Of a stretch of DNA of 64,000 nt, positions 1,189 to 47,792 are shown piece after piece. Under the pieces are notes generated by a model. That model was not told the origin of the DNA. It searched no databases and worked only from the letters and a program-made list of their open reading frames with translations. How positions within the stretch are numbered: the stretch's first letter is position 1; each line of letters opens with the position of its first letter. Source of the stretch: Hyphomonas sp. (GTDB lineage Bacteria; Pseudomonadota; Alphaproteobacteria; Caulobacterales; Hyphomonadaceae); NCBI GenBank assembly GCA_017792365.1, contig CP051229.1, forward strand, positions 868,001-932,000, read 5' to 3'. The translations under genes and the position numbers were made by a program.

Positions 1189-2619
1189 TCAGCCCAACAG
1201 CTTCCGCAGCCCCACGTGGTCGACCTTGGAATTGTGACGCCTGTCCATCGGCACTTCGCGCACGCGCCGCACCTCCAGTTCGCCAAGCTTCCGCCCCCGC
1301 CGCACAAGGTCGGTGTCATCCAGCGCATCGCCACACACCGCCAGAATGTTTCGCCCCTCGATCACCGTGAAACCGGCAGCGCGCACCCCCGGCCAGCTCA
1401 GCGCCGCCGTCTCCACAGCAAACGGATAGAAGTCCCGGCTGACGGCTTCCTTCCGCCCTAGCAGCCACAACCGCCCCGCATCGTCCCGCCGCGCCGCGTC
1501 GGCCGTGCGATGCCAGAGCACGCCATCGCGGGTCACCTTGGTGCTGACGTCATCCACCGGGTCCAGATAACCCCGATTGACGTGCGGTCCGGCCACCCAC
1601 ACCTCGTCCTCAACGATATCGACATCGATCTCTTCAATCGGCGCCCCTGCCAGCAGACCAGCGCCCTCGGCCATCGCGACCCAGTCCTTGTCGCCAATGT
1701 CGTCATACTCAAGATGCGCAATCGGCTCAGCTTCCGTCGATCCATAGACAGCATGGATACGGGCCCGCGGCGCAAACTCCCGCATCCCGTGTAAAAGGTT
1801 CGGAAACACCGGCCCGCCGCCCGTGAACAAGGCCGACAACTCGTCAAGCTGCACGCCGCTATCCACCATTCGCGCACAAACGGCCGGCGGCGCGATCACC
1901 CGGTTCACCCGCTCCCGCTGCATCTGGCGAACGAGCTCGCCGCCATCCAGCTGCGCCGGCTTAGTAAGCTTGCCTTTGGGAATGACACTCGCCGCGCCTG
2001 CCGCGAGGTTCGATAGAATAAAGACAGGCAGGGAGATCAGATCCACATCATCCGGCGTCGTCTGCCGCAATCCCTCCAGCAGCCGATGCTGCAGCAGGAG
2101 GAAATCGACGGACCGCACGATCCCTTTCGGCCGCCCAGTCGAGCCAGAGGTGAAGGTAATCAGCGCAGGCGCATCGCCGCCAATTGCCGCAACCTCATCC
2201 CGACCCCCGCCGCCCCCTTCCGGGTCCGGTATCCGGTCCAGCCCCCGCAACTCCGGAACGAACGGCCGCAGCACCCGCGCGAGCAACGCCCCGGCAAACG
2301 CCTTCGGCTGCGCCATCCGCACCGCATGCCGAACCCCGTCCAGGCCGCCCGACGGCTCGGGAAACGTCGCCACAGCCCCGACCTGAAAGATCGCAAGCAG
2401 CACTTCATAGAGCTCGATGCTGACGCCTCGCGCCACCAGCACCCTGTCGCCCGCGCCAATCCCCATCCCGCGCAACACGCTGGCCCGCGCCGCCGCACGC
2501 TGCGCCAGCTGGCCAAACGACACGCGCCGACCCTCGCCATCAACGATCGCCAGGGCGTCAGGCCGCCGCTCGGCCTGCGCAAGAAACGTCTCGATCAAAC
2601 TCAAAGGCGCGCGCCCCAC
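1189..2619 (-). CDS. AMP-forming acyl-CoA synthetase / acyl ligase, last gene of lipid-like operon
   Basis: A 476-residue adenylate-forming enzyme of the ANL superfamily, which activates a carboxylate with ATP to the acyl-AMP and usually passes it to a thiol. Visible motifs: the P-loop-like ITFTSGSTGRPKGI near residues 153-166, AVYGSTEAEP (A5), WHRTADAARR and GRLWLLGRKE (A7/A8), and a C-terminal RHNSKVDH holding the lysine expected at A10. The family usually has 500-550 residues, so this is a compact member. Its start overlaps the end of the GNAT-like gene by 19 bases, which implies translational coupling. It is the promoter-distal gene of the seven-gene operon that begins at 10659. The substrate is unknown. 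A fatty or isoprenoid acid would suit the neighbours. Confidence 0.85.
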   Translation of the reverse strand: MGRAPLSLIETFLAQAERRPDALAIVDGEGRRVSFGQLAQRAAARASVLRGMGIGAGDRVLVARGVSIELYEVLLAIFQVGAVATFPEPSGGLDGVRHAVRMAQPKAFAGALLARVLRPFVPELRGLDRIPDPEGGGGGRDEVAAIGGDAPALITFTSGSTGRPKGIVRSVDFLLLQHRLLEGLRQTTPDDVDLISLPVFILSNLAAGAASVIPKGKLTKPAQLDGGELVRQMQRERVNRVIAPPAVCARMVDSGVQLDELSALFTGGGPVFPNLLHGMREFAPRARIHAVYGSTEAEPIAHLEYDDIGDKDWVAMAEGAGLLAGAPIEEIDVDIVEDEVWVAGPHVNRGYLDPVDDVSTKVTRDGVLWHRTADAARRDDAGRLWLLGRKEAVSRDFYPFAVETAALSWPGVRAAGFTVIEGRNILAVCGDALDDTDLVRRGRKLGELEVRRVREVPMDRRHNSKVDHVGLRKLLG

Positions 2620-3443
2620 AACGCATAGCGCCGGAAAACCTCGCCGCCCGTCTTGGTGGAATGCGCCGCCGAGACATTGTCGACATGCATCAACGCATGG
2701 ATCACCCGCTGATAATCCTTCTGCCGCACCCGCTCATGAAACGTGTCGGCAAGGAAAGAACCCACCCCCCGCATCGAAGACGCATAGGTCTTCAGGATCA
2801 CGCTCGCCGGACGCTCCCCCTCGGCAAAGTTCGGCAGCGAGAACAGAAACCCCGCCAACCGCCCGCCATCATCCTCGGCCAGCAACACCAGTTCCGGATC
2901 CAGCATCCCGATCACTGGCGCATACGCCCCGACGAACTCCTCCCGCGAAATCGGCGTGTAGAATGCATTGTTCGCAAACGTCCTCAGCGACAGATCATGG
3001 ATCGCCCCCAGCGCCTCGACCGCCTTCTCCGGCTCAAACGCCCGTAGACGAACCCCTTCAGGCGCCACCGGTTCCTTGCCCCCAATGTCCGCAGGCCGCG
3101 AAGACGAGACATAACGCGAGACAATCTCCATCCCCGCCCCCTCGAAGGCCGCCGGATACCAGGCCGGATTGCTCGGCTCCATCAGGAAGGGCGCAGAACC
3201 GTCACTCTCCACAACCAGCCGATACTTCGCCCACGTGCTCCCATCCATCGGCCCGAGCACCGCGCCAAACCCCTCGCCGCGCAGCCGCCCCATCACCTCC
3301 GCAATCAGCGCCGCTCCAGCCTCGGCGTCATCGCAGGTAAACCCACCAAGCACGGCCGTCCGCGCGCCATCCAGCGATGGCCCGTCCCGATAGATGGCCA
3401 GCGCCGCGCCATCGCCTGCAACAATCTCCGGATCTTTCTTCAT
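2601..3443 (-). CDS. GNAT-like acyltransferase
   Basis: A 280-residue protein. The pattern GAVLGPMDGSTWAKYR followed by FLMEPSNPAWYPAAFE and GAGMEIVSRYVSS is typical of YghO-like members of the acyl-CoA N-acyltransferase fold. A C-terminal segment (LVLLAEDDGGRLAGFLFSLP) looks like the central strands of a GNAT domain, and VIHALMHVDNVSAAHSTKTGG resembles a second such half. The ATG at 3443 is chosen because it overlaps the stop of the upstream kinase-like gene as ATGA; the open frame upstream of it lies inside that gene. In this operon it may acylate an amino group, for instance one added by the neighbouring BtaA-like enzyme, but that is inference. Confidence 0.7.
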   Translation of the reverse strand: MKKDPEIVAGDGAALAIYRDGPSLDGARTAVLGGFTCDDAEAGAALIAEVMGRLRGEGFGAVLGPMDGSTWAKYRLVVESDGSAPFLMEPSNPAWYPAAFEGAGMEIVSRYVSSSRPADIGGKEPVAPEGVRLRAFEPEKAVEALGAIHDLSLRTFANNAFYTPISREEFVGAYAPVIGMLDPELVLLAEDDGGRLAGFLFSLPNFAEGERPASVILKTYASSMRGVGSFLADTFHERVRQKDYQRVIHALMHVDNVSAAHSTKTGGEVFRRYALWGARL

Positions 3444-4771
3444 GGCGACAAAGGCAGAAGCGCCATCCCCGACACAGCCGACAGCGCGCCGAGACTCACC
3501 CAAGGCCGCGGCAGCTTCTTCTCCCGGAACACCCACCCCGCCAGCGCGACCAATAGGATGATTGCGGAGCCAATACTCGTAAACAACATCGCTTCCGTAC
3601 CACGCCCCTCGGCCCAGTAGGTCCGCACCGACATCGCCAGCGCCGCAACCACAATGGCCCCCAAGAGAACCGGCATGTTCGCGCCGAACCGCGCCACCAC
3701 GCCAGCCGCCAGAGCCGCAAACGCCAGATTGAACGAAAAGATCGTATCAAGCCGCGCCAGGTTCGAAACCACAAAGAACAGCAACGCGATCGCCAGCACC
3801 ACGACCAGCAGGTTCAGCGCGTCATGCTCCGGCCGCTCCGCTTCGAGATACCGCCGGCAGACAAGATACGCTCCAACCGCCAGCGCCGGCGTCAGCACGC
3901 TCTCGATGCCGGAAAACACCCCGATGCAGAAGAACAGCGTCGCGCCTGTCGCCAGGAAGTGCCGGTCCGCATTGGTATGCTGCGTCAGATACAACAGCCC
4001 AAGCAGCGCCAGCAGGAACGGCCCCGCCACCAGCGCAAGACCAACCGCCCCAAGGTGCATCAGGTTCGCAAGCAGGAAATAGAGCCCCAGCGGAATGAAC
4101 AGGTTGTCCAGCCCCCGCCAGCTCGCGCCCTCCAGCAGAGCCCCGAACGCCGCAACGATGAACCCGAGCAGGATCACCTCGCTCCTTCCGACATCAGACA
4201 ACAACAGCAGCGCAATCATCGCCACCAGCCACGCCGTCACAGCAAACGTCACGACCCCCTCGACGCTCTTCAGCCCGTCTTCCACCTGAAACGTCTGCTT
4301 CCCATACCGCACCCCCACCAGCGCGCTCGCCGCGTCGCACAGCGTCAGGATCGCAATCGGCAAAACGTACAGCAGCGGCCCGCGTGTCGCCCCGGCATCA
4401 GTCCCGGACAGGATGAAGTGCCCATCCGCCAGCCAGAACAGCAGCGCGACAGATACAGCAAAGAATATCTCGCCAAACGAAACCCGCTCCACCCCATGCA
4501 GCCCCTCTCCCAGCCCCTTCCGCATCGTGCCCCGCGCCAGCCCGAACACGGCCACCGACAGCCCGCACATCAGCGCCACTTCCCACGCCGCAGCAAACAC
4601 CCACGGAAACGTCAGGCAGTAGAGCCCAAGGGATATGTGAACCAGCTTGCGGCCCAGCTCGGCCGGCAGCGCCGTGGCCTTCGCCAGCCGCGACACGCCC
4701 CACAACACCACGATGAGCAGACTGACCGACGCAGCCACGCGCGAAAGCGCGAACCACAGCTCGCTGCTCAC
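3440..4771 (-). CDS. Phytol/dolichol-kinase-like membrane protein with a long C-terminal membrane extension
   Basis: A 443-residue polytopic membrane protein. The N-terminal half has the signature of the CTP-dependent polyprenol kinase family (dolichol kinase, phytol kinase VTE5, farnesol kinase): GRKLVHISLGLY near residue 40, LTLCDAASALVGVRYGK near residue 142-158 and KSVEGVVTF near residue 168. These enzymes phosphorylate a long isoprenoid alcohol with CTP in the membrane. Family members are usually 200-300 residues with 6-8 helices. Here about 200 more residues form a second block of hydrophobic helices with no recognised motif. It overlaps the flanking genes by four bases on both sides (ATGA), so it is co-translated with a prenyltransferase and a lipid headgroup-type enzyme. 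Its substrate is probably an isoprenoid or fatty alcohol. Confidence 0.78.
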   Translation of the reverse strand: MSSELWFALSRVAASVSLLIVVLWGVSRLAKATALPAELGRKLVHISLGLYCLTFPWVFAAAWEVALMCGLSVAVFGLARGTMRKGLGEGLHGVERVSFGEIFFAVSVALLFWLADGHFILSGTDAGATRGPLLYVLPIAILTLCDAASALVGVRYGKQTFQVEDGLKSVEGVVTFAVTAWLVAMIALLLLSDVGRSEVILLGFIVAAFGALLEGASWRGLDNLFIPLGLYFLLANLMHLGAVGLALVAGPFLLALLGLLYLTQHTNADRHFLATGATLFFCIGVFSGIESVLTPALAVGAYLVCRRYLEAERPEHDALNLLVVVLAIALLFFVVSNLARLDTIFSFNLAFAALAAGVVARFGANMPVLLGAIVVAALAMSVRTYWAEGRGTEAMLFTSIGSAIILLVALAGWVFREKKLPRPWVSLGALSAVSGMALLPLSP

Positions 4772-5865
4772 GCCACTTCCTCGACGATGAAGTCGGAATA
4801 GAAAAACGCCTTGTCGCGCGCCTTCAGTTCGTCAGCCAGCGCCTGGTTGCTCGACACCTTCCCAGCAAACGCGTCCGGCGCCCGCCGCGGCGCCATCATG
4901 TTCCAGTAGGCGATCCGCGCGCCCGGCCTGGCGGTCTCAAGGATCGTCCCATACGCCGCCTCGTGCGCGCCCGCCGACATGTATTCGAAGATATCCGAAA
5001 GGTTGAACGCGTCAGCCTTCACCCCCTCGCTCGCCAGCTCCTCGACGGTCGACTCGCGCACATCCAGCCGGTCGAGCCGCCCCCGGATTACCTCGAACGC
5101 CTCCTCGCGCAGCGCCCGCGGCAAGACAGCCCCATGACGCCCGCGCAGGATCCAGTGCAGGTACGGATTTTCGGACGGGTCCTGATCCACCAGCGCCTTC
5201 CGCGTCAGCCGCGCCACCTGCTCCGCCGGACTGCCATCCACGTGATCGAAAAAGCTCGGGTCCCGCCCCAGCCTGCCCATCACCGACTTGGAGAAGAACC
5301 CCTTCACCAAAGTGCGCCACCCCCACACATTCCAGCGCTCGTCATAGAATGCCGCGCGATCCTCCGCGTCCCGCCTCCGGAACACATCGTCCAGCGTCTC
5401 GCGATTGTGCACGAACGGCAAAAGCCAGTGCCGCAGGATACGGAAATAGCGCTCGAACTTCCCAACGCCCCCAACCCCATATCTCAGCACCAGCGGCCGT
5501 TTCGCCTTCCAGAAAGCCTGATCCCCCGCCGAAAGGTCCTTGCACACCTTCTCCAGGATCACATCCCGCCTGTGCGAGGCGCGCGACCCCATCACCTCGA
5601 GAAACTCGTCATGCTTCAGCTTGCCGTAAGCCGCCTGCCGGAACCGCACGCAAACCAGCTGCGCCGGATTCATGTCCACGGCGATGACGCGCTCGGCGCC
5701 CTCCGCCAAAAGCGCAAACGCATTGTCGCCCGCCGAAGCGATGCTCACCACCGTATCGCTCGGCTGGATGCGCAGCGCCTCGCAGAGGATGTCCGCATCC
5801 TCCCACACCTGCGCATACCGCACAGCGTCGAACTGCGCCTTGCCGGCAATCTCTGTCCCGCTCAT
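4768..5865 (-). CDS. DUF3419 / BtaA-like S-adenosylmethionine 3-amino-3-carboxypropyl transferase
   Basis: A 365-residue protein of the DUF3419 family, whose best-known member BtaA transfers the 3-amino-3-carboxypropyl group of S-adenosylmethionine to diacylglycerol, the first step of betaine lipid synthesis. Visible features are RYAQVWEDADIL near the start, the nucleotide-binding loop VVSIASAGDNAFALLAEG (about residues 39-56), VIAVDMNPAQL (about 60-70), LRYGVGGVGKFERYF and the late AYWNMMAPRR. No btaB-like N-methyltransferase lies beside it, so an ordinary betaine lipid is not the obvious product. The start codon overlaps the stop of the dikinase-like gene by one base (TGATG) and the end overlaps the kinase-like gene by four. 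A cytosolic, membrane-associated role is likely. Confidence 0.85.
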   Translation of the reverse strand: MSGTEIAGKAQFDAVRYAQVWEDADILCEALRIQPSDTVVSIASAGDNAFALLAEGAERVIAVDMNPAQLVCVRFRQAAYGKLKHDEFLEVMGSRASHRRDVILEKVCKDLSAGDQAFWKAKRPLVLRYGVGGVGKFERYFRILRHWLLPFVHNRETLDDVFRRRDAEDRAAFYDERWNVWGWRTLVKGFFSKSVMGRLGRDPSFFDHVDGSPAEQVARLTRKALVDQDPSENPYLHWILRGRHGAVLPRALREEAFEVIRGRLDRLDVRESTVEELASEGVKADAFNLSDIFEYMSAGAHEAAYGTILETARPGARIAYWNMMAPRRAPDAFAGKVSSNQALADELKARDKAFFYSDFIVEEVA

Positions 5866-8373
5866 CAGCCCGCCGCCCGCGCAATCCGTGTCACAGACCC
5901 GTCACCACCATCGAGACGCACTGTATCGCCCGTCTCAAGCCATTGTGTAGCGCCTTTCAGCGCCACAACACACGGCACCCCCATCTCCCGCGCAACAATC
6001 GCCGAGTGGGACAACAAAGACCCCCGCTCCGCAATCACGCCAGCCGCATTGGCGAACACCGCAATCCAGCCCGGATCGGTATGACGCGCCACCAGTATTT
6101 CGCCAGGCTCCAGCGCCTCGGTGCGCGGATCATTCACAACACGCACCTTCGCCGTCACGGAACCACGACAGCACGCCAGCCCGACCCGCTGCTCGCCGGC
6201 CTCGCCCGGCGCCGGCAGCGCCGATGCAACAACCGCGTCGAGGTCCACTGCCTCCCCCTGCGTGGAAAACCGTTCCGGCGGATCCGCCCTGCCAATTGAG
6301 GCGGCATCCTCACCTGCACGCAAAGCCACCAACGCCTTGAGGTCCGCCGTCACGGTCGTCCCATCAACCGCGCCGAGCAATTCCTCGACCGTCAAATGGA
6401 ACACATCGCGCCTGTCGCCCAATCGCCCTGCATCGACCAACCGGTCGCCAAGCGTCAGGAAAATCCGGCGCACGCGCCCGAACAGCCTCGTGCGTTCAAA
6501 TCTCAAATTCTCCCGATCCCGCACCCGCGTCCACCGCAGCAACCGCGAAGCAACAAACGCCTTCGTCCCGTCGACCACGCCAGAAACCAGCTCGGTCGTG
6601 ATCTCCTTTCTCCGCCAGCCCGGCACGCGTCTCCGTTCGCCCGGCTGAACGGGCCGCCGCCGCAACCGCCATCAGAACGGGCGAGGCGTCCTCATGCAGC
6701 GTCCGCGACTCCAGCTTCAGCTCCTGCGCACACCGGTCGCCGAACTTCCGCACATAATCCTCGAACTCGATCTTCAGCTCTGGCGCATCCTCCAGCGCCC
6801 CGATCTCACCCCGCTCCAGCCGGTCCGCCAGCCCCGAATGCCGCGCCGCTTCCTCGCCCATCGACCGGATGCGTCGCGCAGGCTCGGCGGAGATGATGTC
6901 ACCCTGTCCCACCAGCACCCGCGACAGGAGATCGGCGCCCTTGTCCCCGCCCCACTTGTCCATCGCCTTCTGCGTCACGCCAAAAGCGATCATGCAGAGG
7001 AAGTCGTTCACCAGCGGCGCATCCCAGCGCCGCAGCAGGCGGTCCTCAAGCTTGCGGTATTCCTCGACCAGCTCACCCGCGCTCATCTTGTCGATGGCGG
7101 CGTTCGAAGTATCCAGCGCCTCGTTCAGCCGCTTGTAGAATTGCCGCTTCGTCCACCACAGCCGCGCCTGGTGCCACACCAGTCCAAGCCCCACCTTCAC
7201 CAGCTTGGCCCGGTCCAGCAGCCGCACATAGAACTCATCCGTCGGCGGCGCGATCCGTTGCGCGATGGGCTCCGGCAGAGGCTCGGACACGCCCATCATC
7301 GTTTCCATGAACGCCCGGTTCGACTTGAACCCCGGAAACATCGCCAGCGCGCGATACCAGTTCAGAAGATTGTAATAGACCCGCCCGTCGATCCGCCCCA
7401 GCATCGCGCCGAACACATGCCGGTTCGCCAGCACATCCTTGCGCGGCACGCCCATCAGCCGCGAGAACGCCTGATAGACGTGACTGTAGGTGTAGCGCGC
7501 AAACGAAAACGTCAGCGCGGACGTCACGCCCGGATAACTCTCGACGATGTTCGAATTGTCCCAGATCGTGACCGCATCATCCGGCGCCTGCGGCTGCACG
7601 ATCTCGTCCAGCGTCGTGATCGGGCGCGACTGCAACAGGCGTACCTCGCCACCCTCAAACGCCCACTCGATATCCTGCGGCGAACCGAAATGCGCCTCGG
7701 CCCGACGCGCAAGATCCGCGACCACCTGCAGGTCAGCTTCGCTCGCCACCGGCCCCTCGCCGTCAAGCGACACCTGCTCCACCCGCCCATCGGCATGCAC
7801 CCGATAGCTGTCGCCATCCACCTCGCCACTGACCAGCTCATCCGCCAGCCCGCTGACCGCACTGATCACCACGACATCCCGCGCACCGCTGACCGGATCA
7901 GCGGAAAACGCGACACCCGCAATCCGCGCACCCACCATCTTCTGCACGACAACCGCCGGCGCCTGCGCCTCATCGCCCAGCCCGCGCTCCTTGCGATAGG
8001 CCGCAACGCTCCCCTCGGCGCCAGACTTCCACACCCGGAACGCAGCCGCCGCCACATCGTCAGCGGCGACATTCAGCTCCGTCTCGAACTGCCCCGCATG
8101 CGAGCCCTCCGCGCCATCCTCCTCGCGCGCCGAAGACCGCACCGCAAACGGCCCGTCGCCCAGCGCCTCAAGCGCTGCATCCACCTCACGCTTCGCCGCC
8201 GCCCGCAGGCCGCGCGTCATGAACGCCTCGGCGGAGATCACGAAGAAGTCCGGCACCGGAAAGTTCGCCGCCAGCTGAGCCAGCGCCGCGGCCTTGCCGC
8301 CCGCCTGCTCCACGGACAGGCGCGCCGCCTCATCCAGCACGAATGTCGATGCCTTGACCGTCAGCTCAGCCAT
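5865..8373 (-). CDS. Rifampicin-phosphotransferase-like ATP-grasp/PEP-utiliser dikinase (frameshift near 6617)
   Basis: Repaired length is about 835 residues. The N-terminal ATP-grasp domain has EQAGGKAAALAQLA, PFAVRSSAREEDG, SHAGQFETELNV, VVVQKMVGARIAGVAFSADP and IEWAFEGGEVRLLQSRPITT. A long middle part follows (from SNIVESYPGVTSAL), then a C-terminal phosphohistidine domain with ERGSLLSHSAIVAREMGVP, whose His is the expected phosphocarrier. This order and length match rifampicin phosphotransferase rather than PEP synthase (no C-terminal PEP barrel), so it probably phosphorylates a hydroxyl of a small molecule using ATP. The frame breaks near 6617: the upstream frame reads into TETRAGLAEK while the correct continuation is GWRRKEITTELVSG, consistent with one extra base. 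It overlaps UbiA by 13 bases. The substrate is unknown. Confidence 0.8.
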
Positions 8374-9332
8374 ACCCGCTCCGCCATCGGCCCGACGCCT
8401 AACAGAATGTAGTTTCCGAGGACATAAATGCCCGAAACCAATTCAAGGCGCTGCGCCGTCTTGCGCGTCCCCTCCGCAGCATAATCGATCGCAGCGAACA
8501 CCGCGATTGCGGCGACAATCAGCAATCCCGCCAGAAAAACCGGATGCGGGCCCGTCTCAACGTGCACGTAAGCCGACAACACCAGCCCGGCAAACATCGC
8601 CAACGCTGCGGCATATCCCGCCGTCTTCACACCCCACAGCTTCGAATACGTCTCAACGCCCTCGCGCTCATCCTCCGGCGCCCACGCCTTGCGCGCGATC
8701 TCCAGCGTCACGCCGTTCGCAAGCGACAACAACAGGAACGCCGCCAGCCCACCCCCATGCGCGCCGCCCGGCGCAACACCAGCCGGCAGCCAGTCCGTCG
8801 CTGTCGCGTAAAGATCGATCAGCGGCATCACCGCCATGTGCGAGACCATGTAAAGCAGCGGCCGGGCCTTCAGCGCTTCCGGAGCAAAGAACTCCTTCGT
8901 CATCAGCGCCATCCAACCCCACACCGCCAGCAATAGCCACGTCAGCCGCCAGTCCAGCCACCACGTCGCCGCCAGCGTCACCCCCGCCGCGCCCCACGCC
9001 ACCCAGCGCAGCTCCTTCAGCGAGATGAGACCCCGCGGCACCGGCCGCTCAGGTCGATAGCGCACGTCATCGGCATGATCCTTGTGCTCGTCCGCCACAC
9101 GCAGCTGAACAAAGAAACAGAACAGCGCCACAACCGCGACAATCATCGCGCCCGCCGACGGCGTCCCCTCGCGCAGCAAGGCCGACACGCAAACCGCAGA
9201 CGTTCCGAATGCCGCAATCAGCGCGCCATGCTTGAACACCGGAAACCGCTCGGCCTGGTACTCCCACAGCCGCGCTGCGAGCGGCCGCCCGTCGCGCCCT
9301 GCCGGAGCCGGCGGCTCAGCCGTCTCCATCAC
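8361..9332 (-). CDS. UbiA-family prenyltransferase
   Basis: A 323-residue integral membrane enzyme with about eight or nine hydrophobic helices. The first aspartate-rich site is seen in VADEHKDHADDVRYRPERP (about residues 78-96) and the second in PEDEREGVETYSKLWG (about 220-235). Both bind the Mg-diphosphate of a prenyl donor in UbiA enzymes, which transfer a polyprenyl group to an aromatic ring, sugar, glycerol phosphate or haem. The acceptor cannot be read from the sequence; it does not sit near quinone or haem genes. The GTG/ATG region at 9332 overlaps the HMG-CoA reductase stop as ATGA. Placement between an isoprenoid-precursor enzyme and kinase-like enzymes suggests a dedicated prenylated product. 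Confidence 0.85.
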   Translation of the reverse strand: MMETAEPPAPAGRDGRPLAARLWEYQAERFPVFKHGALIAAFGTSAVCVSALLREGTPSAGAMIVAVVALFCFFVQLRVADEHKDHADDVRYRPERPVPRGLISLKELRWVAWGAAGVTLAATWWLDWRLTWLLLAVWGWMALMTKEFFAPEALKARPLLYMVSHMAVMPLIDLYATATDWLPAGVAPGGAHGGGLAAFLLLSLANGVTLEIARKAWAPEDEREGVETYSKLWGVKTAGYAAALAMFAGLVLSAYVHVETGPHPVFLAGLLIVAAIAVFAAIDYAAEGTRKTAQRLELVSGIYVLGNYILLGVGPMAERVWLS

Positions 9333-10659
9333 TCACGCTCCCGCGCCAGCTTGCGATGGGCGCTCGTAAACTCGTTGGCGCACAACGCGCCGATGATCGA
9401 CAATTCTCCAGCCAGACACACGGCCGCACACACTTCCGCAAACGCACGCGCCTTGCCGCTCCCCTTCAGCCCCAGAATGTTCAGCGCCGCAGACTGGCTC
9501 GGCAAACCCGTCCCGCCGCCAACCGTCCCGACAATCACATTCGGCAGCATTACCGAGACAAATAGCCTGTCACCCTCCCGCCGCTCGATCCGCGTCACCC
9601 CGACGGCGCTCTCCGCCACACAGGCCGCATCCTGCCCCGTCGCAATGTACAGCGCCGCCAGCCCGTTGGCGTAATGCCCCTGCACCCCGATCGAACCGGA
9701 CATCACGCCCCCCAACGCCGACATCCGCCAGTAATCCTCCATCCGCTCCGGCGTCGTGTGCAGATGCGAGCGCACCAGTCGCCATCCAGCTCCACCGAAG
9801 CCGTCACCTTCCGCCCGCGCGACGACTGGAACGACATCGCCGACGCTTTCTTGTCGCCAGAAAAGTTGGCCTCCACAAACCAGTACCGCGGCTTGATCGG
9901 ACACGCCTCAAGGATCGCCTTGCACACCGCCTCGGTCGCGATCGTCACCATGTTCTGCCCGGCCGCATCCCCGGTCGTGTACGTACACACCAGATAGACA
10001 TGGTCGCCCTCGACATGCGGCGACACCTCAACCAGCTCGCCGTGGCTTGTCGTCGTCTTCGCCGCCGCCTTCAGCGTCTCGACCTGCTCGACCACCCACG
10101 CGACAAACAGACCTGCCTCGGTCACGCTTGCAAACGCAAACCCCGGCGCACGATGCACGCCCTCCGCCAGCACGCCCGTCGTGCACCCGCCCGCGCTCGA
10201 GATCAGCCGCGCCCCGCGCCCATAGCTCGCAACCAGCGCCGCCTCCGTCGTCGCCAGCGGCGCATAGAAATCGCCCTTCGCGAAAATGCCGTTCACCCGC
10301 AACGGTCCGATCACCCCGATCGGCACCTCCACCGTCCCGGCATAATTTTCGATGTTGTTGGCATAGGCCGAAAGGTCCGCCTGCGCGCGATCGCCATAGA
10401 GCCGGTCACGATCCGCCTCGCCCGCCCCCGAATGCTTCAGCAGCGTCCGCCAGTTGGCGCTGGTGAATTTCGGATCCAGCCGCCGCGACGGCCGCACCAT
10501 CGGCGGCAGCGGCGTCGTCCCGTCCGGCCGGCTCCCATCGGCTACCTGCTGTTGCGACCGCGCCGCCAGCATCTCGGCAATCAGCCGCCGCGTCGCCTCG
10601 TATGCGCTTGGCAAGACCGTCCCCTGAATCGCGTCCGTCCGGACTGCACCCGCGCACAT
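9329..10659 (-). CDS. Class I hydroxymethylglutaryl-CoA reductase (frameshift near 9795)
   Basis: Repaired length is about 443 residues. It has the hallmark motifs of HMG-CoA reductase: ENYAGTVEVPIGVIGPL, LATTEAALVASYGRGAR (catalytic Glu), TGDAAGQNMVTIATE (NADPH-binding DAMGMN-like), GHYANGLAALYIATGQD (catalytic Asp), LPNVIVGTVGGGTGLPSQ, and a C-terminal FTSAHRKLARE that could carry the catalytic His. The family reduces HMG-CoA to mevalonate with two NADPH. Most Alphaproteobacteria make isoprenoids by the MEP route, and no other mevalonate gene is in the window, so this enzyme may serve only this operon or reduce another acyl-CoA. The frame breaks near 9795 (VELDGDW versus LVRSHLH), explained by one missing C. 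The ATG at 10659 is preferred to the TTG at 10683. Confidence 0.85.
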
Positions 10660-10817
10660 TGTGAGCCCCGCGCACAAACTCAAGGTCCGCGCGACGGTGA
10701 AAAAGCAGCTGCAATCAGGCTTCTGCTCCAGCGCCCTGCGTCACGCCTTTCCCCGATCGATCAAATTTCACAGATCATCTTGGCCGGACATTTCCCACGC
10801 TCCAGTACAAGCCTCCC
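10660..10817. promoter_or_regulatory. Divergent promoter region of the HMGR operon
   Basis: This 158-base gap separates the minus-strand HMGR operon from the plus-strand receiver-like gene at 10818 and must hold promoters for both. It is less GC-rich than the genes around it, with a stretch ATCAAATTTCACAGATCATC near 10760-10780. I see no perfect palindrome or clear -35/-10 pair. It is the only sizeable gap ahead of the seven-gene operon, so control of the whole pathway is likely to act here. Confidence 0.4.
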
Positions 10818-11267: not shown

Positions 11268-11318
11268 CCTCCTCCCGAAGCGCTGCGCCATCCGTTGCGC
11301 GCGAGAGGGAGATCTACC

Positions 11319-12925
11319 ATGACCGCACGGCTCATCGGCTCACGCCGCGCCATGCTCAAGGGCTCCGTCGCCCTGGCGGGCCTGTCTGCAATTGGCGGCC
11401 TCTCGGCATGCCAGCCCGGCGCTTCAACCGACAACGGCGTTCCCATCGCCGACACCGAATACGGCCAGGTCCGCGGCGCGGTCGAAGATGGCGTCAACGT
11501 CTTCAAAGGCGTCCGCTACGGCGCTGACACATCAACCTATCGCTTCGCGGCCCCGCAAAAGGCCCAGCCATGGGAAGGCGTCGCCGACGCGCTCGAATAC
11601 GGCGCCAGCGCGCCTCAATCCCCCGGCGGCGATGGCGGCGGCCTGTTCGCCGACTGGCGCCCGCAACGCCCCTGCCCACCAGCGAAGACTGCCTCTTCCT
11701 GAACGTCTGGACGCCCGCGCTCGATGACGGCGCACGGCCGGTCATGGTCTGGTTCCACGGCGGCGGCTTCTCCACCGGCTCGGGCTCCTCCTACGCCTAT
11801 GACGGCGTCCGACTGGCCAAGCGCGGCGACGTGGTCGTCGTCACCGTCAACCACCGCCTCAACATGTTCGGCTACATGAACCTCACCGGCTATGGCGACG
11901 CCTTCGCCGACAGCCCGGCGGCCGGCATCCTCGACATGGTCCAGTCGCTGCAATGGGTGCGCGACAACATCTCGAACTTTGGCGGCGATCCGAACAACGT
12001 GCTGATCTTCGGCGAATCCGGCGGCGGCTCGAAAGTCTGCACGCTGATGTCGATGCCCGCCGCGCGCGGCCTCTTCCACCGCGCCGTCGTCCAGTCCGGC
12101 CCGCGCGTCCAGCACCCGCCCGCAACCGCCGCCGCCGTCGCCGCCGGCGAAGTCGTCGCCAAGCTCGGCCTCTCATCATCGACGATCGAGCAGATCCGCA
12201 CGATCTCCGTTTCGGAAATTCAGGCCGCCGCCGAAGGCGTCCCGCTGGCCGGATCCGGCCCCACGCTCGACGGCAAGAACCTAATCGTCCACCCGTTCGA
12301 CCCGGTCGCCGCCCCCGCCGGCGCCACCGTACCACTTCTCATCGGCTGCAACCGCACGGAAGGCACCTCGCTCGCCGGCGGCCGCGACGCCACGCTCTTC
12401 GACATCACCTGGGAGACCCTGCCCGAACGCCTCGGCGAGGCCCTGCCCAACCGCGACGTTGCGGCCATCATCGACGCCTACCGCACCAACTACCCCAACA
12501 TGGACGCGCCGGAGGTCTACTTCACCGCCCAGTCCGACGCGACCTTCTTCGCCGGCTCGATCACCGTCGCCGACCGCAAGGCCGAACAGGGCGGCGCCCC
12601 GGTCTATTTCTACCACCTCGACTGGACCACGCCCGTCCACGACGGCAAGCGCTACGTCCCCCATGCGCTCGACATCGGCATGGTGTTCGACAACGTCGCC
12701 AAGTCCGAGAGCATGTCGGGCCCGCCCGGCCCCGAACCGCAGGCCATCGCCGACCAGATGTCGGAAAGCTGGCTCGCCTTCGCCCGCACCGGCGATCCCA
12801 ACAACGCGCAGGTGCCCGAATGGCCGGCCTACACGCTGGACAATCGCGCCATGATGGTCTTCCGCACCGACCCCGGCGTCGAGATCGACATCCGCGCCAC
12901 CGAACGCTCGATGCTCACCGGCTGA
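11319..12925 (+). CDS. Tat-exported carboxylesterase type B (frameshift near 11665)
   Basis: Repaired length is about 535 residues. The N-terminus carries a twin-arginine signal (SRRAMLKG) and a hydrophobic stretch ending in LSAC, so it should be exported folded and may be lipid-anchored at that Cys. The enzyme part has SEDCLFLNVWTP, VMVWFHGGGFSTGS (oxyanion loop), LIFGESGGGSKV (catalytic Ser), a Glu in GCNRTEGTSL and a His in YVPHALDIGMVF, which together fit the alpha/beta-hydrolase type B esterase family that cleaves carboxylic esters. The frame breaks between FADWRPQ and TPLPTSEDC near 11665, at a C-rich run. The ATG at 11319 follows a purine-rich GAGAGGGAG. It stands alone, with no clear operon partner. 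Confidence 0.8.
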
Positions 12926-20397: not shown

Positions 20398-21458
20398 CTA
20401 GACCGACGGCCCCACGTCCTTGAGATCGCTCACGCCCTCGGCGCGCATGATCTCCAGCAATTCCCGCTTGATCCGCCGCACCAGCCCCGGCCCGCCATAC
20501 ACCAGCGCGGAATAAAGCTGCACGGCCTGCGCCCCCACCGCCAGCTTGCGCCAGACATCGCGCCCGCTCGCAATGCCCCCGGCGCCGATCAGGTCCTTCT
20601 CGCCGCCCAGCGCCGTCGCAAACTGCGCCAGCACCTCCGTCGACTTCTCCATCAACGGCGCACCCGAAAGCCCCCGGCCTCACCCTTGAAGGCCGAGACC
20701 AGATCATCCGGCCGCTCGATCGTGGTGTTCGACACGATCAGCCCGTCGAGATACCGCGCCGCTTTCACCGCCTCGCAGATCGCCCCGATCGCGCGCTCGT
20801 CGAGATCCGGGGCCACCTTCAGGAACACCGGCCGCCGCCCCATCTCCGCGTCCAGCGCCGCCGCCGCTTCACCCGTCGCGCCCAGCAGGTCCTCCAGCGC
20901 CGTCCCCTCCTGCAGCCCCCGCAGACCCGGCGTGTTCGGCGACGAGATATTCATCGTGACGTACGAGCACTTGCGCCACACCGCCTTCAGCCCGGCGACA
21001 TAATCCGCCACCCAGTCTTCGCTCGCCTTGTTGGCCCCGACATTGGCGCCGACCACACCCCATTTCGGCCGGGCGTCCAGCCGCCGCACAAACGCATCCA
21101 GCCCCTGATTGTTGAACCCCATCCGGTTGATCACCGCCTGGTCCGGCGTCAGGCGGAACAGCCGCGGCTTTGCATTCCCGACCTGCGGCAAGGGCGTAAC
21201 GGTCCCGCACTCGACGAAGCCAAAGCCGTAGCCCAGCATCGGCGTGAACACTTCCGCATCCTTGTCGAACCCCGCCGCCAGCCCAACCGGATTGGGCAAT
21301 TCCAGTCCCGACACGCCAAGCCGCACCTTCAGCTCCGGCGGATCAGCCTTGGGACGCCCCGGCCCGAACCCCGCCTTCAGGCCGGCAATCGCAGCACGGT
21401 GCGCCGCTTCCGGCGGCAGCATGCGCATCCCGACAGTCGCCATCCCGCCCAGGCTCAA
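20398..21458 (-). CDS. pyrD: Dihydroorotate dehydrogenase (quinone), class 2 (frameshift near 20660)
   Basis: Repaired length is about 353 residues, normal for the membrane-associated class 2 enzyme that oxidises dihydroorotate to orotate with FMN and passes electrons to quinone in pyrimidine synthesis. Motifs include NPVGLAAGFDKDAEVF, FGFVECGTVTPLPQVGN, VINRMGFNNQGLD, the active-site MNISSPNTPGLRGLQ with its catalytic Ser, VFLKVAPDL, IVSNTTIERP and, after the break, DLIGAGGIASGRDVW. The frame is lost at FKGEAGG near 20660; the continuation should be LSGAPLMEKS, which needs one added base. The gene is essential for de novo synthesis, so the break is probably a sequence error. It follows the DUF952 gene by 10 bases. 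Confidence 0.9.
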
Positions 21459-31196: not shown

Positions 31197-32788
31197 CTAG
31201 CTCAAAGGCGCGAAACTCGAAGCCTGCGCCCGCCGCCAGTCCTCCGCAAGATGTGTCGAGCCGGCGTCCCGGATCAGCGCGTCCCGCTCCAGCAACCTGA
31301 ACGCAACGCTACCCTCCGCCGTATGCCGGTCGTCGATCCGCCGGATCAGATCATCCGGCGACAGCTCACCCGGATGCCGCCGCCCCGCAGCGCCCACAAT
31401 CTCGGCGAAGGAATGCAGCGTATTGCGATGGAAGTTCGCAACCCGCACGGCCTTGTCCGTAACCACCAGTCCGCGCTGCAGCCCCGCATCCTGCGTCGCA
31501 ATCCCCGTCGGACAGTGGTTGTTGTGGCAGTTGAGCGACTGGATGCACCCCAGCGAGAACATGAACCCGCGCGCCGTATTCACCCAGTCCGCCCCCAGCG
31601 CCATCGACGAGGCCAGCGCGAACGCCGAGATCTGCTTGCCCGCACACGCCAGCCGCACCTCGTCCTTCAGCCCCGCCCCGACCAGCGCATTGCGCACGAA
31701 CACCAGTCCGTCCCGTAGCGGCGCGCCGACATGGTCCATGAACTCCGCGGGCGCTGCGCCCGTCCCGCCTTCCGCGCCGTCCACCACCACGAAGTCCGGC
31801 CGGATGCCCGTCTCGATCATCGCCTTCATCATCGCCATGACCTCGTGGCGCTTGCCGACGCACAGCTTGAACCCGACAGGCTTGCCGCCCGACCGCTCGC
31901 GCAACAGCGCAACGAACTCCATCAGCTCTACCGGCGTGGAAAACGCCGAGTGCCACGGCGGACTCTCACACCGCTGCCCGACTGGAATCCCGCGCGCCTC
32001 CGCGATCTCCTTCGTCACCTTCTCGCCCGGCAACACGCCGCCATGCCCGGGCTTCGCGCCCTGGCTCAGCTTGATCTCGATCATCTTGATCTGATCGAGC
32101 GCCGCCTGCTCGGCGAACTTCCCTCGTCAAAACCGCCATCGCTCGCACGGCATCCGAAATACCCAGACCCGATCTCCCACACGAGATCGCCACCGCCGCC
32201 TTGTGATAGCGCGACACGCCGCCCTCGCCGGTGTCGTGATAAAAGCCGCCCATCGCTGCGCCGCGATTCAACGCCTCGATCGCGCGCGCGCCAAGCGAGC
32301 CAAAACTCATCGCCGAGATATTGAACACGCTGGCCGAATAAGGCTGCCTGCAATCCTTCCCTCCGACCTCGATCCGGAAGGTCGCCGGGTCCGCCTTCAC
32401 GGGCGCCGCGGAATGCGTGATCCACTCATACGGCGGCTCGGCAAACGACAGGTGCGAACCAAACGGCTCGACGCTCATCACATCCTTGGCGCGCCGATAG
32501 ACCAGCGCGCGCTGCTCGATGTTGAACGGCTTCCTTCCGTCTCGCTCTCGACGATATAGCCGCGCAGGAACGGCCGCAGCCATTCGAACACCCACCGGAT
32601 CGCCCGACCAGCGGAAAGTTCCGCCACAGCGTATGGTCCTGCTGGAAGAAATCGAAACAACCGAACACCGCCCCGATCAGCAACGGCGCGGCGAGCATCC
32701 ACCACCACGGCGACAAGTAGACAGCCGCCGCAACAGCCAGCGCGGCGCCGACCAGCACGATCAGGAATGGCAGGATGCGGACCATCAT
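31197..32788 (-). CDS. Membrane-anchored FMN-binding glutamate-synthase-like protein (four frameshifts)
   Basis: Reassembled from four or five frames, the protein is about 530 residues. The start (ATG at 32788) gives two membrane helices (RILPFLIVLVGAALAVAAAV and WWWMLAAPLLIGAVFG), then RWVFEWLRPFLRGYIVES, KPFNIEQRALVYRRAKD, FNISAMSFGSLGARAIEALN, GGDLVWEIGSGYFGCR, IEIKLSQGAKPGHGGVLPG, and near the end MFSLGCIQSLNCHNNHCPTG, with Cys residues fitting the Fe-S site of the glutamate synthase central and FMN domains. Breaks are near 32605, 32540, 32207 and 32118. Stand-alone members of this family lack the glutaminase domain and their reaction is unproven. Given the general pattern of breaks, sequence error is likelier than loss of function. 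Confidence 0.7.
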
Positions 32789-45771: not shown

Positions 45772-45991
45772 CGCAATCCGTCCCCTTCCGATGAATCGAT
45801 CTGCATTGAAGACCGTCGCGGTCGAATGTGGCCGGATTTGGCCCCGGCAGATTACAGACGCAGTTGCGCCGGCCGCGATGACCGGGACAATCTGACAATC
45901 GACAGGCGCATCCATTTCGTCGGAGACGGCGGAGCGTGTAATACGAAATCAACACATTCAGCGCCCGATGCGCTGGAGGAGACCACACGAG

Positions 45992-47792
45992 ATGCCATTC
46001 CGGCTGAAAGGCAAAGCAGACGATACGGTCGAGGGGGTCGCTCCGCGCCTCCAGCAGATCCCGTTTGTCCGCGACGCCCCGGAACGCGCCCTGAAGGCCG
46101 CCGAAAAGGAGATCCAGTGGTTCTCCATTCCCGGCGGCTGGAAGCTGTTCGATGTGGGCGAGTCGTCCGAGGAAATCTATTTCGTGCTGTCGGGCTCGCT
46201 CGGCGCATTCAGGGAGACTGTGTCGGGTTCGCCCGAGCTCGTGGGACACATCCGCTCAGGTGAGCCTGTCGGCGAAATGGCGATGATCGCGGGCGAACCG
46301 CACGAGCGCGCGGTCTATGCCCTACGCGACTCTGAAGTCATCTCCATCTCCCGCACCGGCTTCATGCAGCTGGTCAAGTCCGACCCGCGCATCCTCGAAC
46401 GGCTGACCCGCGTGATCATGGTTCGGCTGCGTCAGGCCAAGCGCCGCACCGCGCGCGCATCCGAGCCGCGCATGTTCGGCCTGCTTTCGACCTCCCCCAC
46501 CATTGACCTGAAGTTGCGCGCCCAGGCGCTCGCGACGGAATTGCAGGCGATGGGTTTGCGCACGGCCATCGTCGGCGAAGAGGCGGTGGGGATGCCGCTC
46601 AGCTATTTCGATGAACTCGAAGCGCGCAATGACATCGTGATGATGCTGTCGAACATCGGCGACACGCACTGGTACAAGGTCGTCCAGCGCTATGCCGATC
46701 GCCTCTGGCTGTTTGCGCGCAACGACGCCCGGCCGTCTGTGCCGTTGTTGCCGGACGACCCCTCTCCCGCGCGACAATTCAGGCTGGTCGACGTGGTGCT
46801 CCTGCACCATCGGGGGGCGCAAAGCGGCGGAAACGCTGGAATGGAAGGGCGCTGCTGGCGCTGCACGCGTATTCCATTGGGACGGGATGGATCAGCAGGA
46901 TTCGCGGAGAATGGCCCGCACCATGGCGGGTCGGTCCGTCGGCCTGGTGCTGTCAGGAGGCGGGGCCCGCGCCTACGCACATATCGGCGCGATCCGGGCG
47001 CTACGTGAGATGAAATGCCCGATCGACTTCATTGGCGGGGCGTCGATGGGCGCGGTTGTCGCAGCCTGTGTTGCGAGCGGCTGGGACGATGACGAGATCG
47101 ACCGGCGCATCCGCAAGGCGTTCGTCGAGTCAAATCCGCTGTCTGATTATCACCTTCCCGTTGTGGCGCTGGTGAAGGGCCACAGGGTCGATTCGCGCCT
47201 GAAGGAGAACTTCCAGGACCAGCTGATCGAGGAACTGGATATCCCGTTCTTCGCGGTGTCGACCAATCTCACCCAGGGTTCCTACCGGGTTCATCGCGAA
47301 GGCATGTTGCGGCACGCCCTGAGGGCGAGCATCTCCTTGCCCGGCATCCTGCCGCCGATCGTTGTGGAAAAGCAGGTTCTGGTTGATGGCGCTGTGCTGA
47401 ACAACTTCCCGGTCGACGTGATGCGGGACCTGCACAGGGGCCGCATCATCGGGGTCGACGTTGCTCAGGCCCCGCAGGGCCTGTCAGCGGATGAATTCAG
47501 CGACCCGCCAGGCTTTCTGGGCTGGACGCTGGCGAAGGGTTTCAGGGCTGCGCCGCCGATCGCCAACCTGCTGATGCGCGCAGCGACCATCTCTGTGAAC
47601 CCGCTGGCGCACCGGGGTCTCACCGACGTCTTGGTGACCCCTCACCTAGAAGGGATCGAGCTGCGGGACTGGAAATCCTACGATGCGGCCGTTGAGGCGG
47701 GCTACACCGCCATGGTGGACGCGTTGAGCGACGCCGACGGCGCGTTAAGCGCGATTGTATCGCGCCGGGCGCCAAGTCCGGAGATCGCATAG
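45992..47792 (+). CDS. NTE-family patatin phospholipase with cyclic-nucleotide-binding domain (frameshift near 46818)
   Basis: Repaired length is about 599 residues. Residues 30-150 form a cNMP-binding fold (WKLFDVGESSEEIYFVLSG, SGEPVGEMAMIAGEPHERAVYAL), then a linker (about 165-300) with weak alpha/beta pattern, then a patatin domain with GLVLSGGGARAYAHIGAI (oxyanion), FIGGASMGAVVAA (catalytic Ser), and VDGAVLNNFPVDVM (Asp). This order is that of neuropathy target esterase and bacterial relatives, lysophospholipases at membranes. The break is at a run of six G near 46818; five G gives HHRGRKAAETLEW, in frame throughout. The ATG at 45992 has GGAGGAGA upstream. Confidence 0.85.

Follow-up and report, generated by a model that had tools for sequence, protein, structure and literature searches.

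In human 3-hydroxy-3-methylglutaryl-coenzyme A (HMG-CoA) reductase, Ser684 and Lys735 bind the HMG carboxylate. A 2026 review noted that lone HmgR genes, which stand beside a full methylerythritol phosphate (MEP) pathway, need study (PMC13001223). Here we describe one such group of HMG-CoA reductase homologues (HMGR), starting from a 64,000-nucleotide stretch of a Hyphomonas sp. genome (contig CP051229.1, positions 868,001 to 932,000; hereafter, the window). The window carries on its minus strand, at 1189–10659, a seven-gene operon in the order HMGR, a UbiA-like protein, a dikinase, a BtaA-like DUF3419 protein, a phytol/dolichol-kinase-like membrane protein (PHK), a GNAT-like protein and an AMP-forming ligase. 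We consider it fairly probable that this operon is a translationally coupled, horizontally mobile unit that makes a single lipophilic specialised metabolite or polar lipid, and that the acyl-CoA reduced by its HMGR-like enzyme is not HMG-CoA.

To determine how widely the gene set is conserved, an alignment of the DUF3419 protein was scanned against one genome per species for 84,980 species (GTDB), which yielded 511 relatives, and the best 80 loci were analyzed. In all of these 80 loci the remaining six genes follow the same order for as much of the operon as the contig covers, which argues that the order did not arise by chance; 60 loci are complete and intact. Counted over all 80, HMGR is present in 71, UbiA in 73, the dikinase in 79, PHK in 80, GNAT in 78 and the ligase in 77. 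Overlaps at the junctions are near-universal, with a spacing of -4 at 68 of 80 DUF3419-PHK and 53 of 66 HMGR-UbiA junctions. A sister genus within the host's family has an unbroken operon whose seven genes show 53–88% identity, again with coupled junctions. Among the loci identities drop to about 35–60%, yet the genes remain together, and we therefore conclude that they act together. A previous examination of the letters alone (the sequence-only reading) had taken the operon to be translated as a unit and had named conservation of gene order as a check to make; the coupled junctions conserved across the loci bear out the former, and the 80 loci supply the latter.

The HMGR homologue is a clear member of its family: its PF00368 score lies far above the cut-off, with the two parts of the window gene matching the profile at 23–228 and 221–368, and its closest solved relative is an archaeal HMGR (E=1.5e-80). 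The catalytic residues E559, K691, D767 and H866 (human numbering) are kept in 66 of 66 operon HMGRs, and D690 and K692 are kept as well. At position 684, however, serine is replaced by glutamate in every one of the 66, and at position 735 lysine is replaced by alanine or serine, again without exception; both Ser684 and Lys735 are present in two solved references and in five ordinary class I alphaproteobacterial sequences. Since the catalytic residues are kept while 684 and 735 are replaced, the residues suggest that the enzyme probably retains the NADPH-dependent conversion of a thioester to an alcohol and that its substrate has changed. In the same class of bacteria we also observed HMGR homologues outside the operon with proline at 684 and asparagine at 735 (L035 and L036; L055 and L056). 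Those of L035 and L036 are the closest by identity in the draw from the class, and L056 adjoins nucleotide-sugar genes; homologues of this type are unlikely to be ordinary HMG-CoA reductases.

The sequence-only reading had proposed that the operon enzyme makes mevalonate from HMG-CoA, and had suggested a look at the hosts for other mevalonate-pathway genes. Of 28 host genomes searched, none encodes an HMG-CoA synthase, although the controls were positive, and 24 encode DXR of the MEP pathway; the other four may use DXR-II, a known alternative to DXR (PMC3847144). Together with the replacement of the HMG-carboxylate residues in all 66 sequences, these results speak against the proposal: the operon HMGR is not a mevalonate-pathway gene and does not serve isoprenoid supply.

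Hosts of the operon are scattered among marine and soil bacteria; in addition to the sister genus, they include members of the Rhodobacteraceae, Ruegeria, Roseovarius, Sulfitobacter, Yoonia, Paracoccus, Devosia, Bosea, Hyphomicrobium, Rhizobium and Dongia, and one gammaproteobacterium, Halomonas salipaludis. The distribution is patchy: PHK occurs in 15 of 248 genomes drawn from the Roseovarius family, while 385 genomes of the class contained no operon-type kinase gene except the host's own and two weak stand-alone relatives, and an alignment of the kinase run against 398 Pseudomonadota genomes found a full-length match in its own genome only and no further operons. One copy of the operon lies on a plasmid. 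The DUF3419 tree strongly supports a grouping of the Halomonas protein with that of Chelativorans, adjacent to Bosea, and the nearest neighbour is the same for three further operon genes. Being nested among alphaproteobacteria, the Halomonas operon was acquired by horizontal transfer. Such patchiness and mobility fit a specialised metabolite better than a core membrane lipid.

Among the 77 loci with flanking sequence, 22 have a cytochrome P450 gene within 2 kb of the operon, and in 14 loci a sulfotransferase gene lies between the two. These genes are mostly upstream and divergent, but in L120 the sulfotransferase/P450 pair is downstream and co-directional with the operon; an unrelated P450 lies directly upstream in the operon direction in L098, L106, L107 and L125, or directly downstream in that direction in L085 and L092. 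Examples from the Rhodobacteraceae are found at L120:14670-17071, L094:2973-5344, L098:3988-5361 and L085:14694-16067. The best scores of two P450s that were scanned were to pentalenene oxygenase and albaflavenone monooxygenase, which are terpene hydroxylases, both far below the cut-offs. That hydroxylating and sulfating enzymes have been recruited repeatedly, and apparently independently, suggests that the product is lipophilic.

Pfam families were matched by five of the seven window proteins (HMG-CoA_red, UbiA, PPDK_N with PEP-utilizers, DUF3419 and AMP-binding), whereas the window PHK and GNAT proteins had no Pfam match of their own. The DUF3419 protein matches PF11899 over its full length (profile 3–382 of 385), in keeping with the likeness to BtaA noted previously, and an NCBIfam scan of two orthologues matched no model. 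No BtaB-type N-methyltransferase was found among the seven genes or their recurrent neighbours, the rest of the genomes not having been searched. Another genus of the host family has DUF3419 relatives of about 30% identity, and no further gene of the operon lies in the flanks examined. L015, L017 and L019, of a sister genus, encode another DUF3419 protein, at about 30% identity, in a separate uncharacterised cluster, beside a gene of Rieske-like oxygenase type and a partial gene of adenylate-forming type (both assigned by eye).

The phytol- or polyprenol-kinase likeness of PHK also holds up. The RKxxH clamp, which has been described for prenol kinases (PMC10849223), is found in 77 of 78 orthologues, and the K[STA]xEG motif, associated with cytidine triphosphate (CTP), in all 78. 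A stand-alone 221-residue protein of this kinase type shares 34% identity with the N-terminal half of PHK over about 220 residues; the C-terminal half consists of additional helices (about 180 residues). Pfam scores are marginal, PF01148 being matched in 1 of 27 orthologues. From these sequences PHK appears to combine an N-terminal half resembling CTP-dependent alcohol kinases, with putative kinase activity, and an extra helical half. Profile searches of solved structures with PHK, GNAT and DUF3419 gave chance matches only, and a structure search with PHK found no credible solved relative, which is not evidence for a new fold.

For the GNAT protein, which matches PF00583 weakly in 7 of 25 orthologues, the likeness read from the letters is upheld by an AlphaFold2 model of an orthologue (predicted local distance difference test score 92.9). 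The model resembles the tandem GNAT 7q3a (Z 18.5 over 245 residues, root-mean-square deviation 4.1) and mycothiol synthase (Z 17.4); the tandem-GNAT match spans the whole length, so that, by this model, the fold is that of a tandem GNAT. Structure comparison also places the model close to an amine acetyltransferase. The ligase is an enzyme of the ANL superfamily that reaches the cut-off of none of the named models listed: its nearest NCBIfam model is the OleC-like PRK09274 (E=4e-73, 246.6 bits against a cut-off of 478), and against the equivalog for OleC-type beta-lactone synthetases it reaches 123.8 bits, where 900 are required.

The UbiA-like protein exceeds the PF01040 cut-off of 34.2 bits and has the first Asp-rich motif as DExKDxxDD...RPxRP. 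The second, DxxxD, is absent downstream of it in 68 of the 69 sequences that were tallied, with ExxRK in its place. It is thus uncertain whether the protein attaches a prenyl group, as had been suggested: family and first motif agree with this role, but the second motif does not. The dikinase consists of an ATP-grasp domain (PPDK_N), a middle domain of its own and a C-terminal swivelling phospho-His domain (PEP-utilizers), whose motif LLSHSAIVARE is present in 66 of 68 orthologues. Pfam and NCBIfam scans matched no C-terminal phosphoenolpyruvate (PEP)/pyruvate-binding barrel domain, and no named model came close to its cut-off. By analogy with rifampicin phosphotransferase (Rph) and PigC, the dikinase probably phosphorylates or activates some other substrate.

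From these family assignments and residues we infer the substrates, the order of steps and the product of the pathway as follows. The ligase would activate an acid to its CoA ester, and the HMGR homologue would produce a primary alcohol by reducing an acyl-CoA that is not HMG-CoA. PHK, perhaps with the dikinase, would phosphorylate an alcohol, and the UbiA-like protein would couple the activated hydrophobic part with a partner. The DUF3419 enzyme would add a 3-amino-3-carboxypropyl group from S-adenosylmethionine (SAM), and the tandem GNAT would acylate an amine, possibly that of the same group. In many Rhodobacteraceae the P450 and the sulfotransferase would then hydroxylate and sulfate the product. 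The amino-acid-headed lipid proposed in the sequence-only reading is a possible product. More tentatively, and with slightly less than even confidence, we suggest that the product belongs to a new class of bacterial natural products, lipid or terpenoid, for which the HMGR family has been repurposed to another acyl-CoA and an amino-acid head added by DUF3419 is subsequently N-acylated. The sequence-only reading knew of no described pathway with the seven-gene set, and we found no description of it in the open-licence literature.

Several observations weigh against a coupled pathway to one lipophilic product. A dedicated terpene cyclase or polyprenyl synthase is not among the operon genes, and because the second UbiA motif is non-canonical, prenyl diphosphate may not be the substrate of that protein. 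P450 and sulfotransferase genes accompany the operon only in Rhodobacteraceae-type loci; neither the window nor the sister genus shows them next to it. Two of the seven genes, those for HMGR and the dikinase, are frameshifted in this genome record. Finally, we found no published assay for the operon enzymes, and their substrate specificity is deduced from residues.

The most serious competing explanation is that the HMGR is a genuine HMG-CoA reductase supplied with HMG-CoA by the breakdown of leucine. Mevalonate would then be one of the product's building blocks rather than an isopentenyl diphosphate (IPP) precursor, and would be decorated by the rest of the operon. The four invariant catalytic residues, the strong PF00368 score and the archaeal HMGR as closest solved relative are all compatible with this; yet the replacement of Ser684 and Lys735 in every operon sequence and the lack of HMG-CoA synthase in the 28 hosts make it unlikely. 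Considerably less probable is the salvage of isoprenoid alcohols, also raised in the sequence-only reading, in which the two kinase-like proteins would convert prenols such as phytol or farnesol to prenyl diphosphates for UbiA, as do VTE5, VTE6 and HPT in plants. PHK does carry the prenol-kinase clamp (PMC10849223) and is co-encoded with a UbiA-family protein, but salvage leaves the HMGR, DUF3419, GNAT and ligase genes without a role, the second UbiA motif is degenerate, and the dikinase is unrelated to the known phytyl-phosphate kinase.

Least probable of all, in our judgment, is a betaine- or homoserine-type membrane lipid like diacylglyceryltrimethylhomoserine (DGTS), with the DUF3419 protein acting as BtaA on ordinary diacylglycerol. 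The full-length PF11899 match would suit such a role; the want of a BtaB-type N-methyltransferase among the seven genes would not, and the patchy spread and the P450/sulfotransferase neighbours better suit a specialised metabolite.

The features of the operon are collected in Table 1. Adjoining frames overlap by 1–19 bases at all six junctions (HMGR 9329/UbiA 9332, UbiA 8361/dikinase 8373, dikinase 5865/DUF3419 5865, DUF3419 4768/PHK 4771, PHK 3440/GNAT 3443 (ATGA) and GNAT 2601/ligase 2619).

Table 1. Genes of the operon in the window, in order of transcription.
Feature	Coordinates	Strand	Evidence
HMGR-like NADPH acyl-CoA reductase (putative)	9329..10659	-	PF00368 in both halves; intact orthologues
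UbiA-superfamily membrane prenyltransferase-like protein	8361..9332	-	PF01040, 46.9 bits; motif tallies in 69 sequences
PEP-synthase/Rph-like dikinase	5865..8373	-	PF01326 + PF00391; intact in relatives
DUF3419 (BtaA-like) protein, putative SAM:3-amino-3-carboxypropyl transferase	4768..5865	-	PF11899, E=1e-61, 209.7 bits
PHK, phytol/dolichol-kinase-like membrane protein	3440..4771	-	RKxxH and K[STA]xEG motifs
Tandem-GNAT N-acyltransferase-like protein	2601..3443	-	ATG overlaps upstream stop as ATGA; fold model
AMP-forming acyl/amino-acid ligase (ANL superfamily)	1189..2619	-	PF00501, E=1e-41

This order and these overlaps had been recognized in the sequence-only reading, which missed the two frameshifts. 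HMGR is split across the frames 9703–10683 (N-terminal part) and 9329–9904 (C-terminal part), with the switch near 9.76–9.79 kb, and the dikinase across 6496–8373 and 5865–6665, with the switch near 6.5–6.67 kb; in both cases the halves match contiguous parts of one family, and both genes are unbroken in relatives. At least three further window genes are split likewise, their halves each matching contiguous parts of one Pfam family: a carboxylesterase gene (11295–12925, plus strand), pyrD (20398–21458, minus strand) and an FMN-glutamate-synthase-type gene (31197–32595, minus strand). Because pyrD, which is normally essential, is also split, sequencing error is a likelier cause of the frameshifts in HMGR and the dikinase than pseudogene decay, and the record of the host's closed 3.4 Mb genome probably holds many such errors. 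Elsewhere in the window, the reading frames for a cyclic-nucleotide-binding domain and for a patatin phospholipase share more than 300 bases (45968–47789, plus strand) and are perhaps one NTE-like gene split by a frameshift. A tRNA-Arg(CCG) called by ARAGORN at 12715–12800 (minus strand), within the carboxylesterase reading frame on the opposite strand, is probably spurious or else an unusual overlap.

One group of lone HMGRs now has an answer that can be tested: its members belong to a conserved operon, and their substrate pocket has been remodelled. Since culturable hosts are available (Ruegeria, Roseovarius, Sulfitobacter, Paracoccus, Devosia and Bosea), the product should be directly findable. 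If the proposal is correct, it would also provide substrates for two poorly characterised groups, the DUF3419 proteins without BtaB and the non-canonical UbiA proteins.

Five of the operon enzymes can be compared with known systems. The DUF3419 protein has full-length PF11899 in common with BtaA of DGTS synthesis, but sits without a BtaB partner in a set of seven enzymes. PHK resembles VTE5, PolK and DOLK as a multi-helix membrane protein with both kinase motifs, and differs in its C-terminal helical half, its marginal Pfam scores and the lack of a structural match. The UbiA-like protein shares PF01040 and the first acidic motif with UbiA prenyltransferases, its nearest solved relative being, weakly, the archaeal DGGGP synthase 6m31, whereas ExxRK stands where the second DxxxD is expected. 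With PEP synthase-like phosphotransferases such as Rph and the prodigiosin ligase PigC, the dikinase shares the ATP-grasp domain and the swivelling His domain with its catalytic histidine, while having its own middle domain and no PEP/pyruvate barrel. Lastly, the operon HMGR belongs to the same fold family as class I HMG-CoA reductases of the archaeal/eukaryotic type (PDB 6hr7) and keeps their catalytic E, K, D and H; it differs in lacking HMG-CoA synthase as a pathway partner in the 28 hosts, in the S684 to E and K735 to A/S replacements in 66 of 66 sequences and, in the aligned operon examples, in the DAMGMN loop, which has become DA(A/S)GQN.

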